Shown in pieces: positions 7,724 through 45,635 of a DNA stretch of 64,000 bases. The position numbers were made by a program, and so were the translations under genes. This stretch comes from Clostridium bovifaecis (GTDB lineage Bacteria > Bacillota > Clostridia > Clostridiales > Clostridiaceae): the NCBI GenBank assembly GCA_009738435.1, contig CP046522.1, positions 465,249 to 529,248 on the forward strand. Direction: 5' to 3'. Position 1 is the first letter of the stretch. Every line of letters begins with the position of its first letter. Below the pieces are notes generated by a model. The model made no database searches, was not told the DNA's origin, and worked only from the letters and a program-made list of their open reading frames with translations.

Positions 7724-9082
7724 ATGAGTAAAAAGAGAATTGCTTACACTATAGCAGTAGCTTTTATAGTGGTTTTTTCAACTACTTTTGCTATCTTAAT
7801 GACACTTGAAAGAACAGATTATAGAAATTATCTACAAGGTGAGTATTCTAAAAGTATGTATCAATTGATAGATTCAGTAAAAAATATAAAAACTGATTTA
7901 TCTAAGTCATCAATTGTAGGTTCTAAGGAACAGGGACTAGTCGCTTTTGGAAGTATTTCGAAATATGCAGATATAGCCAATGATAAAATTCATTCATTGC
8001 CTATACCGCAAGAAGATTTAGATGGAACTAGTAAGTTTCTAACCCAAGTAAGCGATTTTGCTTATAGTATTGTTAGAGCCTCATCTCAAGGAAGAGACCT
8101 ATCTGATAAAGATTATGAGAACATAGAAAGTTTAAAAAATGAAGCTGATTATTTGCTAATTCAATTAAATGAAGTTCAGCAAGATATAAATGAAGGTAAG
8201 GTTAAATGGGGAGAGATAAGAAAGAAGGTTAGCTTAGGCTTAAATAAGGCTAACGAAAGTTTGGTATCTAGCAAGTTTAAAAACATACAAACCCAAGTTG
8301 TTCAATATCCAGCTCTAATATATGACGGACCTTTCTCGGAGAATATTTTAGAGGTAAAGCCAAGGATATTAGGAATGAAGGAAGTTACAGAAGCTGAAGC
8401 TAAAAGTGTTGTAAAAAATCTTCTAGGCGCTAATAGAGTGGAAACTATAACAAGAAGAGAAGACGGAAAAACCAAGATACTTTCTTACAGCTTTAATGTT
8501 TCGCTAAAGGGAAGAGAAAAGGGTGAAGAGGTCGTATGCGAAGTAAGCAAGAATGGAGGAAAAGTTGTTTACTTAATTGATAATAGAGGCGTAGAGGGTG
8601 CGAAGATAGATGTAAAAAAGGCTGCTGCATTGGGTAGTGATTACCTAAGCAAACTAGGTTATAAAAATATGCAACCAACTTATACAATGAAGCATGACAG
8701 TACTGTAACTGTAAGTTATGTATATCATGAAAAGGATATACCAATATATCCTGATCAAATAAAGCTTAAAATAGCTTTAGACAATGGAAATATAGTAGGA
8801 ATAGAATCTCAACAGTATTTGGTATCCCATACTGAAAAAAGGGATATACCTAAGCCTAAGATTTCTAAAGATAAGGCAAGGGAAAAGGTAGGAAAGAATC
8901 TTAAGATAACATCAACAGGCTTGGCTATAATACCAACTGAAAATAATAAAGAGGTTCTTTGTTATGAGTTTGTTGGAAAACATAGAGATGAAGATTTTAT
9001 TGTATATATAAACGCAGAAACTGGATATGAACAAAAGATTCTTCAAATTATAAAAACCCTAGATGGAGAACTGACAATATAG
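7724..9082 (+). CDS. ypeB: Germination protein YpeB
   Basis: YpeB keeps the spore cortex lytic enzyme SleB stable and in place. An N-terminal membrane helix (about residues 7-27) is followed by a long helical region and C-terminal PepSY-like repeats, with AGLAIIPTENN-type strands near the end. Length (452) is usual. The GGGGAGG ribosome binding site fits the ATG at 7724. Family members are usually co-transcribed with sleB, but here no sleB lies on either side; the upstream neighbour is a divergent glycosyltransferase. Confidence 0.92.
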   Translation: MSKKRIAYTIAVAFIVVFSTTFAILMTLERTDYRNYLQGEYSKSMYQLIDSVKNIKTDLSKSSIVGSKEQGLVAFGSISKYADIANDKIHSLPIPQEDLDGTSKFLTQVSDFAYSIVRASSQGRDLSDKDYENIESLKNEADYLLIQLNEVQQDINEGKVKWGEIRKKVSLGLNKANESLVSSKFKNIQTQVVQYPALIYDGPFSENILEVKPRILGMKEVTEAEAKSVVKNLLGANRVETITRREDGKTKILSYSFNVSLKGREKGEEVVCEVSKNGGKVVYLIDNRGVEGAKIDVKKAAALGSDYLSKLGYKNMQPTYTMKHDSTVTVSYVYHEKDIPIYPDQIKLKIALDNGNIVGIESQQYLVSHTEKRDIPKPKISKDKAREKVGKNLKITSTGLAIIPTENNKEVLCYEFVGKHRDEDFIVYINAETGYEQKILQIIKTLDGELTI

Positions 9083-9216
9083 AAGTATTTTGCAACGCAA
9101 AATATTTCAATGGAGGAGTGGAGAACTTTAAATGAGAGTATCTCTCCGCTTCCTCTATTTTGCGCTTTAGCGCCTCCACTTCTCCACTAAGAAAATTGCG
9201 GCGCAATTTTCTTATA
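9083..9216. repeat. Modular palindromic intergenic element (GTGGAG/CTCCAC type), copy B
   Basis: Both ends are small hairpins: ATTTTGC-AAC-GCAAAAT at the left and GAAAATTGC-GGC-GCAATTTTC at the right. Between them the left half reads GGAGGAGTGGAG and the right half reads GCGCCTCCACTTCTCCAC, its inverse, with the hairpin GCGCTTTAGCGC. The element directly abuts the broken end of the antiporter gene. Confidence 0.6.
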
Positions 9217-10301
9217 TTGCTATTGAATATATCATTTGCAATAGGAAGATTATTTGTAAGGGCATAAGTAGCAAATACAATAGAAGCAGCACCTCTAAGT
9301 CCAACCCAAGAGACTAGTGCTTGCTGTTTTAAGGGAGCTTTAAACCAACTTAATATGCTGAAAACTGCAATAGGACGCGCTATTAAAACCATAAATATTG
9401 CAATTATAAGCCCGCTTGTAAAAACTGATGGCAACTGAGATGGAAAAACTAATAAACCTAAAGTGAAGAATAAGATAATCTGCATTAGCCATGACAATCC
9501 ATCAAAGAAATGGACAAGATTCTTTTTATGTGGAATCTTGCTATTGCCCATAATAATTCTGATTATATAAACTGCCAAAAATCCGTTTCCGCCAATCAGC
9601 TCACTTAAGGAGTACCCAAGTAACGGCATTGATATTACAAGAATTGAGTATAATCCATCTACGTTTAGGTGAATGCGTTTTAGTATAAATACTGACACTA
9701 CTGAGATAGCAAATCCAATAGCAAGGCCGAAGATTGCCTGATGAGATAATAATTCTACTATTGATTGTTAGTGATTATTCGTTATTAAAGAGATGGCGAC
9801 TATGGTTAACATGTATGACATAGGATCATTACTTCCGCTTTCTATTTCAAGCATAGAAGCTAATCCACCTTTGAGGTTTAACCTCTTAGATCTTAAGATG
9901 GAGAATACAGATGCAGCATCTGTGGAAAAAACTACTGCGCCTAAAAGCATTCCTTCGAGGAGAGTTACATTTAGTACGAAGTGTGAGAATATGCCAACTA
10001 AGAGTGCTGTCAGCATAACTCCAACTGTTGCTAAAAGTATTGCTTGAGGAGCTATAGGTTTTGCTAATTTCCAGTTAGCTCCGAATCCCCCACAAAACAT
10101 AATAAATACTAAAGCAATATTACTTATCTGCTGAGCAAAAGTTGAATTGTCAAAATATATTCCCCCGATGCCATCAGAACCCAACAGCATACCTAATGTT
10201 AAAAAAATTAATAACGTAGGTACTCCGAATCGATATAATAATTTGCTAGAGAGCACGCAAGTAAGCAATACTATACCGCATAATAATAGTGTTTGTACCA
10301 T
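9217..10301 (-). pseudogene. Cation/proton antiporter (NhaP/CPA1 type), remnant
   Basis: Reading on the minus strand from 10301, the first 177 residues give a CPA1-type antiporter with the motif STDAASVFSILRSKRL and ESGSNDPMSYML, the ion-binding region. An in-frame TAA (9768-9770) interrupts it after TNNH. The same frame then continues with QSIVELLSHQAIFGL and further helices up to WVGLRGAASIVFATYA. Homology stops at about 9217, where palindromic element B begins, so the last helices and any C-terminal regulatory domain are missing. A nonsense codon plus a lost 3' end argue for true decay; no frameshift is needed to join the halves. Confidence 0.85.
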
Positions 10302-22343: not shown

Positions 22344-22590
22344 GGAAACAGTTTAAAATGGAAAACGGATAATGGAAAATGAAAAACTTAAAGGATAGGT
22401 TAGATTATAAAATGTAAATCGCTAGTCACTAGCCACTAATCGCTAAAATAAGTCATAAGCAGAAAACAATAGCGACTAGAGGTTAGTGACTTTTTTTCTA
22501 AACTGTACACTTTAAACTCAGCAACTTAAAATAAAGTTGGTTACTGGTTACTGGTTACTGGTTACTGGTTACTGGTTACTGGTTACTAAA
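22344..22590. repeat. Modular intergenic element with heptamer array, copy E
   Basis: The gap between DUF1385 and prmC contains inverted word blocks (TCACTAGCCACTAATCGCTA at 22425-22445, AGCGACTAGAGGTTAGTGAC at 22471-22491) that can form a long hairpin followed by TTTTTTT. The gap ends in a GGTTACT array. Confidence 0.55.
22539..22587 (+). repeat. Tandem heptanucleotide array, 7 x GGTTACT
   Basis: Seven perfect head-to-tail copies of GGTTACT end seven bases before the ribosome binding site (GAGGTGG) of prmC. A second array of the same unit lies at 45601-45635. Confidence 0.95.
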
Positions 22591-24780: not shown

Positions 24781-24953
24781 AAAGTACACAATGGAATTTT
24801 TAGGGATAGGTATAGTATAGATTGTGATAAGGTAGAAGTTGTACACACAACAAAGAAGGAAGATTAGAGATAATAATAGTATTAAAGTCAAGGTTAAGAA
24901 GTAAAAGGATAAAAAGGGTAGATTCTAAGTTTTTAAAAAACAATAGTTGGGCT
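24781..24953 (+). repeat. Tandem duplication, copy 1 (173 bp)
   Basis: Nearly identical to 24958-25131. The differences are almost all insertions or deletions (for example AAAAAGGG versus AAAAGGG, AAAAAACAATAG versus AAAAAACATAG, GAAGATTAG versus GAAGAGAATTAG). Confidence 0.95.
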
Positions 24954-24957
24954 TAAA

Positions 24958-25131
24958 AAAGTACACAATGGAATTTTTAGGGATAGGTATAGTATAGATT
25001 GTGATAAGGTAGAAGTTGTACACACACAAAAGAAGGAAGAGAATTAGAGATAATAATAGTATTAAAGTCAAGGTTAAGAAGTAAAAGGATAAAAGGGTAG
25101 ATTCTAAGTTTTTAAAAAACATAGTTGGGCT
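24958..25131 (+). repeat. Tandem duplication, copy 2 (174 bp)
   Basis: Second copy of the segment at 24781. Four bases separate the two. The reading frame of the affected protein is only continuous if one copy is removed and indels are corrected. Confidence 0.95.
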
Positions 25132-28921: not shown

Positions 28922-28925
28922 GGAT

Positions 28926-28976
28926 AAAAAAAGAACTAAGTTGCAGATAAATTATCTGCAACTTAGTTCTTTTTTT
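28926..28976 (+). terminator. Strong terminator after upp
   Basis: A perfect stem joins AAGAACTAAGTTGCAGATAA and its inverse around a minimal loop, with A tract before and T tract after, so it may act on both strands. Confidence 0.95.
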
Positions 28977-29114
28977 ATTAATTTTTTAGTCAAAGTTATA
29001 CAAAATATATTCTTTTTTTAAAGTTTTTTATTAAATCTTTCAATTATTTGATTTATGGTATAGAATAATATAGGATAGAAGTACTACAAGCTTTTTTAGG
29101 AGTGGAGAAAGATT

Positions 29115-42749: not shown

Positions 42750-44009
42750 ATGAAAAAGATAATAGTGAAAGGTGGAAAAAAGTTAAGTGGTGAAGTGAGT
42801 ATCAGTTCAGCTAAAAATGCTGTCCTTCCTATAATAGCAGCTAGCATATTAAATGGTGAGAAAACTACCATAATTGATGCCCCGATGCTTCAAGATGTAT
42901 TTGTAATAACCGATGTTTTAAAATCAATTAATGCTGATATAAATATAGATAGAATCAATAAAAAAATAGTTATAGATACTTCTAAGGTAATAAGCGGGGA
43001 GCCTGATAGCGAATTAGTAAGGAAGATGAGGGCATCTTTTTTGATTATGGGACCTATGATTGCAAGGTTTGGAAGATTTAAAATATCTTTACCAGGCGGG
43101 TGTAACATTGGCAGTAGACCTATAGATCTTCATCTAAAAGGCTTTACATCTCTTGGAGCACAAGTTAGCTTTGGGTACGGTCATGTTGAAGCATATGCAA
43201 GTAAATTAATAGGAAATAAGATATATCTAGATTTTCCTTCTGTTGGAGCTACAGAAAACATAATGATGGCAGCTGTATTAGCAGAGGGAGAAACCGTTAT
43301 AGAAAATGCTGCGGGTGAGCCAGAAGTACAAGACTTGGCAGAATTTTTAAATTCAATGGGAGCTCAGGTAAGTGGTGCGGGAACAGACACAATTAGAATT
43401 ACAGGTGTTAAGGAATTAAGAAGCACCAGCTATAAGCCTATACCAGATAGAATAGAGGCAGGAACTTTTATGGTTGCAGCAGCAATTACTAAAAGTAAAT
43501 TGAGGATAAATGGAGCAAGAGAAGAACACTTAAATCCTATTATTGCTAAGCTAAGAGAAATAGGAGTTTGCATGGAGAAGGGAGAAAATAGCATAATCGT
43601 GGATGGGGATAATGAATTCAAGCATGTAGATATAAAGACAATGCCTTATCCAGGATTTCCGACAGATATGCAAGCTCAAATGATGAGTTTATTATCGATA
43701 GTAGAAGGAACTAGTATTATAACCGAGACTATTTTCGAAAATAGATTTATGCATGCTGGCGAACTTAAAAGAATGGGTGCAAATATAAAAATAGATGGCA
43801 GATCCGCAATAATAGAAGGAGTAGAGAGGCTTACTGGTAGTGAGGTCAAAGCGACAGACTTAAGAGCTGGGGCTGCTCTTATACTTGCAGGGTTAGCTGC
43901 AGATGGATACACAAAAATAGGGGATATATATCATATAGATAGAGGGTATGTTAGTATAGAAGAAAAATTTTTAAGCTTAGGAGCAGATATTACAAGAATT
44001 GAAGAATAA
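42750..44009 (+). CDS. murA: UDP-N-acetylglucosamine 1-carboxyvinyltransferase
   Basis: It is the first committed step of peptidoglycan synthesis, adding enolpyruvate to UDP-GlcNAc. The catalytic, fosfomycin-reactive Cys118 is present in [15 protein letters not shown], so fosfomycin sensitivity is expected at this residue. The N-terminal [20 protein letters not shown] and the C-terminal [17 protein letters not shown] are conserved. 419 residues. It is 30 bp after ywmB. Confidence 0.96.
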
Positions 44010-44022
44010 TATAAGAATTTTG

Positions 44023-44248
44023 CGAAGCAATTTCCTTAGGTTAGGGCACAAGTGCCAGTTAGGCAGCAGAGCCGCAGTTAGAAAAGAATGTTAGATATTA
44101 GGAAGTTAAGAGTTAGGTTAAAGTGCAAAGCTTAGAGTTTTCAACCATTAACTTTAACTTTGTTTTCTAACTTTCTAATCTTGCGCTTTAGCGCCTAACT
44201 CAGGCTTTAGCCTCTAACCTGAAATAAATTGCTTCGTAATTTATTTTT
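44023..44248. repeat. Modular palindromic intergenic element (GTTAG/CTAAC type), copy C
   Basis: This is the clearest copy. The left arm reads: hairpin TTTGC-GAA-GCAA, GGTTAG, hairpin GGCAC-AA-GTGCC, AGTTAG, hairpin GC...GC, AGTTAGAAAAG. The right arm is the inverse in the same order, with hairpins AGGCT-TT-AGCCT and GCGC-TTTA-GCGC, ending in ATTGCTTCGTAAT. It fills most of the 330-bp gap before spoIID. No coding potential is seen. Confidence 0.75.
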
Positions 44249-44339
44249 AACACGATTTACTTAAAGGTGGGTTATATTTTTCAGTAAGCAATAATAAGAT
44301 AGTATTGATTCTAAATTTAGAGAATAGGGAGAAAAACAT

Positions 44340-45547: not shown

Positions 45548-45600
45548 TTTAAAAAAAGAAAAATATCCATCATTGGCAATTGTCAATTTAAAATAGCCCT

Positions 45601-45635
45601 GGTTACTGGTTACTGGTTACTGGTTACTGGTTACC
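45601..45635 (+). repeat. Tandem heptanucleotide array, 4.9 x GGTTACT
   Basis: Four perfect GGTTACT units plus a last unit GGTTACC. It lies upstream of spoIIQ and is the same unit and orientation as the array at 22539. Confidence 0.95.

Follow-up and report, generated by a model that had tools for sequence, protein, structure and literature searches.

The window, by which we mean the whole 64,000-nt stretch of Clostridium bovifaecis DNA analysed here, holds a composite palindrome in the gap between two forward-strand genes, which we take from their sequences to be murA (upstream) and spoIID (downstream). The element is bounded by two unlike terminal hairpins, termed here the A-end and the B-end, and these enclose two inverted arms, in which short GTTAG-containing words alternate with small hairpins, on either side of an AT-rich centre (Table 1). 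A sequence-only reading had described this locus as a modular palindrome of hairpins and GTTAG words, and every part that it described is present. The A-end hairpin looks recombinant, with an outer arm and an inner arm of two different types, and the B-end hairpin carries one mismatch beside its loop and was missed by the hairpin scan. A second member of the same superfamily lies elsewhere in the window, right behind the stop codon of a gene ending at 9082.

Table 1. Features of the palindrome, its neighbouring genes and the second member in the window.
Feature	Positions	Strand	Remarks
Whole modular palindrome	44005..44256	.	A-end left, B-end right; ~250 bp
A-end terminal hairpin, AAGAATTTTGC-GAA-GCAATTTCCTT	44013..44037	.	
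Left arm: GGTTAG, hairpin GGCACAAGTGCC, AGTTAG, hairpin GCAGCAGAGCCGC, AGTTAG	44039..44081	+	GGTTAG 44039-44044; GGCACAAGTGCC 44045-44056; AGTTAG 44057-44062; GCAGCAGAGCCGC 44063-44075; AGTTAG 44076-44081
AT-rich central part	44082..44166	.	
Right arm: GGTTAG, hairpin AGGCTAAAGCCT, AGTTAG, hairpin GCGCTAAAGCGC, AGATTAG, AGTTAG	44167..44219	-	On the other strand: GGTTAG 44214-44219; AGGCTAAAGCCT 44202-44213; AGTTAG 44195-44200; GCGCTAAAGCGC 44183-44194; AGTTAG 44167-44172
B-end terminal hairpin, GAAATAAATTGC-TTC-GTAATTTATTTT	44221..44247	.	Read by eye
Upstream gene, 419 aa	42750..44009	+	TAA stop, 44007-44009, touches the A-end
Downstream gene, 344 aa	44340..45374	+	Query for orthologous loci
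Second member, GTGGAG-word class	9077..9221	.	Two terminal hairpins, loops 9094-9096 and 9200-9202

The individual words are not enriched in the 64-kb window, where GGTTAG occurs 21 times against a shuffle mean of 24.8 and AGTTAG 34 times against 52.0; the signal therefore lies in the arrangement and not in the word. As RNA, the 251-nt element folds at -89.4 kcal/mol (z -8.5), and the DNA fold of its other strand reaches z -6.6, with 0 of 200 shuffles equally good in either case. Across 17 elements from five families, the fold z ranges from -3.1 to -14.3 (25 dinucleotide shuffles each). Rfam covariance models gave nothing over the gathering score at the element, with RAGATH-27 and MIR408 as sub-threshold matches.

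When the element was used as query, its own genome (one contig, 3.73 Mb) yielded two more full-length copies, each 87% identical to it, at 336766 and 1147030, and many partial copies besides, so that the earlier suggestion of a repeated element held. Among 24 copies inspected, the terminal hairpin TTGCNNNGCAA is common to the other copies, whereas the words are not. The pattern WWWTTGCNNNGCAAWWW has 89 forward-strand matches in this genome, compared with 1 for the reversed control; across 146 genomes of one taxonomic family, this one included, most have 0 to 10 matches and a few have 58, 75 or 116. A census based on blastn with five prototypes and on the hairpin scan, covering 100 stretches around matches together with the window, revealed a dispersed superfamily of 112 blastn clusters, 36 of them full-length; this count is a lower bound on a set that includes fragments and split elements, several clusters possibly belonging to one element. 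Full-length copies, prototypes included, number 9 for TLONG, 11 for TSHORT, 11 for GTGGAG, 3 for GTTAG and 2 for AGTAACC. The interior words differ between families (GTTAG, GTGGAG, AGTAACC, TAATCAC and AGNGAYT), and the terminal hairpins are held in common. Some hairpins beyond ~2.97 Mb of the genome entered the census through blast matches alone, and RNALfold over all stretches and an inverted-repeat scan were set aside because of loose borders or because they missed the window element.

A search of a species-genome collection with the hairpin-plus-word pattern, which may leave out the own genome, returned 36 stretches (Clostridium sp. K13, 8; Clostridium acetireducens, 7; C. celatum, 1; others, 20), and the 16 clostridial ones were inspected. 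By eye, those of K13 and of C. acetireducens, whose strain here is DSM 10703, carry other words again (AGTTAAGG, AGTTAAGAG) and often just one clear end hairpin. Strict hairpins in stretches sampled from further genomes numbered 2 in 112 kb of G022, 2 in 154 kb of G108, 0 in 200 kb of G021 and 2 in 200 kb of the same-genus G092. None of these six hairpins shows the anatomy of the window element, and a high hairpin count is thus not in itself a sign that a genome contains it. Both hairpins of G022, a genome of another genus, sit by eye inside other word palindromes (L282, 2687; L283, 5659), where the TTGC-type hairpin is inside and not at the ends. Plasmids searched with two queries and phages searched with one gave no match to the element, and no paper describing it was found in a search of accessible texts that had most subscription journals outside its range.

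Other repeats were noticed in the window as well. Perfect tandem heptamers stand at 22538-22587 (TGGTTAC, 7 copies) and 45599-45634 (CTGGTTA, 5 copies), with GTTAG/GTGGA words nearby; both arrays are perhaps worn AGTAACC-class elements, and a longer array lies at ~2871218-2871321 of the genome. A tandem duplication occupies 24781-25121 (spacing ~178 bp, pieces 92-100% identical), and a perfect 27-bp inverted repeat with arms 1 nt apart lies at 28924-28978.

The ends of all families, when pooled, follow a moderate consensus, CANAATATAAGAAAATTGC for the A-end or the variant TAGAAATAAATTGC / TAGAAATATTTTGC for the B-end, and the terminal hairpins have a median of -11.6 kcal/mol. Four internal hairpins were removed from 86 ends, and six ends of unclear type stay outside the A/B counts. 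Under a typing rule written after the ends had been seen, all 18 pairs with both ends typed consist of one A-end and one B-end (p 5.5e-5 when the seven TLONG pairs are treated as a single one); in two further pairs one end stayed untyped. Among solo hairpins, two are strict joins of a B outer arm and an A outer arm by rule, the others are A+A or B+B, and a few more resemble B+A joins by eye. The flanks of 21 end pairs, two of which used an internal hairpin, showed no excess identity over permuted flanks that would indicate a target-site duplication (best z 1.9 among 98 settings).

Pairing is kept in the terminal stems while base identity varies. Standard pairs make up 94.3% of the cells in 72 distinct hairpins, a percentage inflated because hairpins were collected only if 8 or more of 11 positions paired, and 120 cells are changed on both sides; 0 of 500 shuffles paired as highly, and slid control structures pair at 40-54%. 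The two inner columns, which are free of the collection rule, are AA/TT or TT/AA in 70 of 82 cases, TT/TT or AA/AA in 7, and otherwise in 5. Furthermore, inter-word segments form stems of at least 4 bp more often than shuffles do, both in the GTTAG class (12 of 71; shuffle mean 1.9, maximum 6) and in the GTGGAG class (10 of 41; mean 0.8, maximum 5), and small inter-word hairpins such as GGCACAAGTGCC, GCGACAAGGTCGC, GTGGCGGAGCCAC, ACGCTAAAGCGT and others are unlike in sequence yet paired. The compensatory changes that the sequence-only reading had anticipated are therefore found, as double changes in the terminal stems and as inter-word stems above shuffles.

The elements are concentrated at the ends of genes. 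With the border set 20 nt outward from the loop centre or at the blast border, 49 of 82 adjoining gene 3' ends lie at most 10 nt from an element, compared with 8 of 40 gene starts (p 4e-5); the remaining 33 gene 3' ends are farther away, up to 861 nt. At 29 gene ends the stop codon falls inside the border, typically as the TAA of TAAGAA or the TAG of TAGAAA, and in two genes the last codons run through the end hairpin and the orthologues end differently. Convergent gaps account for 23 of 58 elements with both neighbours known, in comparison with 20 of 167 element-free gaps (p 1e-5). In the context table, which excludes clusters under 90 bp (66 of 112 kept, 65 placed), 63 of the 65 placed elements are outside ORFs and 2 inside according to a simple ORF caller, an intergenic bias of the kind that the sequence-only reading had proposed to look for. 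A role in the nucleoid or in replication, also suggested at the outset, gains no support from orientation relative to the replichores (35 to 22, p 0.11, no significant bias). Three features had escaped the sequence-only reading: the placement on stop codons, the polarity given by unlike A-ends and B-ends, and interiors that are interchangeable. Two reports bear on function as leads only: E. coli REPs at most 15 nt from a stop codon are said, with reference to earlier work, to stall ribosomes (accessible part of PMC12306157), and clusters of hairpins that follow stop codons have been put forward as terminators (accessible part of PMC8355165).

A related species provides a view of the same gene ends. 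G047 is the closest of seven congeners searched by the downstream protein (76% identity), and its murA-spoIID gap contains an ordinary terminator and no element. At 18 other element-bearing gene ends (18 of 24 gene pieces had a usable G047 orthologue), the orthologue is followed by solo hairpins, by GTGGAG-like or GTTAG-like modules, or by a repeat family of G047's own, contents that were read by eye at nearly all 18. A repeat, defined as a blastn match elsewhere in 149 kb of G047 sequence, is present at 12 of the 18 focal ends compared with 2 of 15 control ends (p 0.004). As the 149 kb are mainly the same loci, partly overlapping, this figure reflects how far gene ends have repeats in common, not how many copies the genome holds. 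The murA site and 14 of the 15 control loci used are on one G047 contig region, and at about half of the control ends a terminator or flank common to the two species can be recognised. A G047-specific repeat (GGATTTGCATTTAGAAAAGCTTC...) was also seen soon after stop codons (L195, L197, L202, L206, L226).

The interiors and the ends of the elements vary to different degrees. Diversity per site in the interior is 0.012 in TLONG (9 copies) and 0.020 in TSHORT (12 copies), whereas in the left loop it is 0.38 and 0.41, respectively, and in the TSHORT right outer arm 0.215; the nine TLONG copies carry four different left loops. Seven of 82 terminal hairpins, including the left one of the window element, join the outer arm of one type to the inner arm of another. 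In addition, the GTGGAG interior is found in both orientations inside the A/B frame: 8 of 25 GTGGAG A-ends adjoin the CCTT module, 8 adjoin the GCGC module and 9 neither, and the six GTGGAG elements with both ends assigned are split 3 to 3. Right outer arms are identical in 7 of 9 TLONG copies and left ones in 6 of 9, and outer arms are thus in part passed on together with the payload. In TSHORT, the loop varies to some extent with how many repeat words a copy has, i.e. with the sublineage, and loop variation could come from hypermutation of hairpin loops. The data on ends, interiors and orientation fit payload exchange, inversion and loss through the terminal hairpins. No exact empty site was found in the nearest relative searched, which is too diverged to offer one, and movement itself is therefore unseen.

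Our best explanation, held with about even confidence, is a dispersed two-ended palindrome, often placed on stop codons, whose interior cassettes are exchanged by recombination within common terminal hairpins. Cassettes would swap between sites by recombination in the terminal hairpins shared among families; we infer that the outer arms and the loop tend to stay with the site and that the inner arms and the payload travel, and the palindrome would then behave as a non-autonomous REP/BIME-like cassette. In RNA, a terminal hairpin right after a stop codon is predicted to act on the ribosome, 3' decay or termination, which would make gene ends a tolerated landing place. How REP-type palindromes, a widespread form of non-coding bacterial DNA, spread and why they crowd gene ends are unsettled questions. 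Several word families with the same two end hairpins in one genome, often on stop codons, together with the other repeats at the same gene ends of a sister species, make the docking part separable from the payload, and this separation makes the exchange model testable. If interiors do swap between sites, a little-known kind of mobile DNA would have a rapidly changing home at gene ends.

A somewhat unlikely alternative is the ordinary REP/BIME scheme, in which a RAYT or another Y1 (HUH) transposase of the genome acts in trans to move entire elements and the unlike hairpins are the left and right ends read by the enzyme. The two unlike hairpin ends and the lack of target duplication agree with it, and the genome holds eight Y1-domain loci. 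Word-plus-hairpin modules (GTGGAG-GCGC..GCGC) also resemble REP heads with their hairpins (heads as given in the accessible part of PMC2817692), and one RAYT-like gene (L072) has a GTGGAG element ~1 kb away, separated from it by other sequence. However, within the 1.5 kb examined to each side, seven of the eight loci are without a TTGC-type terminal hairpin and the eighth has one ~1 kb away, and several are flanked, by eye, by other palindromes (GTGCCAGGCACC, GGTCAGGACACAATTTTT, GGGACGGTTCTTA). The terminal hairpin is likewise present in 0 of 12 legible RAYT-like loci from five other genomes (14 of 30 loci inspected). The matching transposase that the sequence-only reading had proposed to look for thus did not appear, as no Y1/RAYT gene flanked by element copies was seen at the inspected loci of the own genome or the five others. 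Moreover, the scheme leaves payload inversion within the A/B frame unexplained. Six of the Y1 genes in the own genome are RAYT-like (L069-L074, at 2574100, 179208, 2642657, 3253441, 856801 and 2708864), and several of them have flanking palindromes of their own (GGGACGGTTCTTA, GGTGCCAGGCAC.., GGTCAGGACACAATTTTT); several distinct REP systems apparently exist in this genome.

Cassette exchange may also be imagined without any transposase, a proposal that we regard as speculative and unlikely. Here the stop-codon hairpin itself would be the target for payload homing via SbcCD cutting and repair copying: the hairpin would be extruded, its loop would be cut by the host hairpin nuclease SbcCD, and another site bearing the same terminal hairpin would serve as template for repair of the break. 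Any word-and-hairpin payload could then home to gene-end hairpins, flip within its own frame, or be replaced by another family. sbcD is present in the own genome. If this proposal is true, gene ends across clostridia would form a common set of docking sites for which palindromic cassettes compete.

It is distinctly improbable that the elements are host bidirectional transcription terminators that gene conversion has kept alike and in which the words arose as by-products. The hairpin on the stop codon, the enrichment between convergent genes and the stability of the terminal hairpins would suit such an origin, and so would the sister species, where an ordinary terminator occupies the murA site and other sites carry hairpins or other repeats. 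Against this, canonical intrinsic terminators (a GC-containing stem followed by a T run) number 0 in the window element, and by the rule that we applied they are no more frequent behind element-bearing ends (13 of 49) than behind control ends (6 of 25); termination at element ends is therefore no more than a possible role. Near-identical ~270 bp copies at nine loci also exceed the needs of a terminator.

It is very doubtful that the elements are a MITE family that has long inverted repeats and belongs to a DDE insertion sequence. MITEs that use one transposase usually have common ends and different interiors, as these elements do, but the 21 end pairs compared show no target duplication, the ends are hairpins of two unlike types, and no transposase-bearing copy was noticed on reading, without a gene scan, the stretches around matches. 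Attribution to attC-like integron recombination sites (GTTAGGC/GCCTAAC words) is hardly credible: attC core boxes resemble the GTTAG words, but the same ends also enclose four further classes of words. Integron integrases over the curated cut-off numbered 0 in the own genome, with 13 sub-threshold matches, and the attC candidate was rejected.

The exchangeable palindromes share features with several known repeat systems. STRR are heptamer repeats of cyanobacteria. Like these and the TAACTGA heptamer repeats of Beggiatoaceae (PMC4679880, accessible part), the elements place short words between genes, some of them overlapping stop codons; as far as described, however, heptamer repeats are direct, mostly face start codons and are not hairpin-bounded palindromes. 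In DNA uptake, one uptake word per genome is typical. In DNA-uptake-sequence terminators, a word pairs with an inverted copy of itself, and the resulting hairpin may end transcription (PMC2267715, in part), whereas several words and a separate terminal hairpin are found here. The clostridial stem-loop repeat families, among them Clot-1 and Clop-1 (models of 74 and 93 nt, in C. tetani and C. perfringens), are likewise intergenic repeat families with a predicted common structure, and are set apart by description only, as common ends with exchangeable interiors are not described in the accessible part of that report (PMC2267715). Among the initial suggestions, a REP/BIME-like non-autonomous element fits best. 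The likeness holds for the many dispersed, mainly extragenic palindromic copies, for the inverted modules of the two arms, which make a mosaic with units in alternating orientation, and for stems that vary with pairing kept; it does not extend to a RAYT flanked by copies, none having been seen at the loci inspected. REP termini, moreover, often provide the stop codon of a neighbouring ORF (PMC3733652, accessible part). Unlike REPs, the terminal hairpin here, with the consensus TATAAGAAAATTGC, is without the unpaired GTAG/CGTC head, and the inner modules carry GTTAG or GTGGAG; and in contrast to REP/BIME units, these elements are ~150-280 bp composites with two unlike terminal hairpins and five word classes in one genome.
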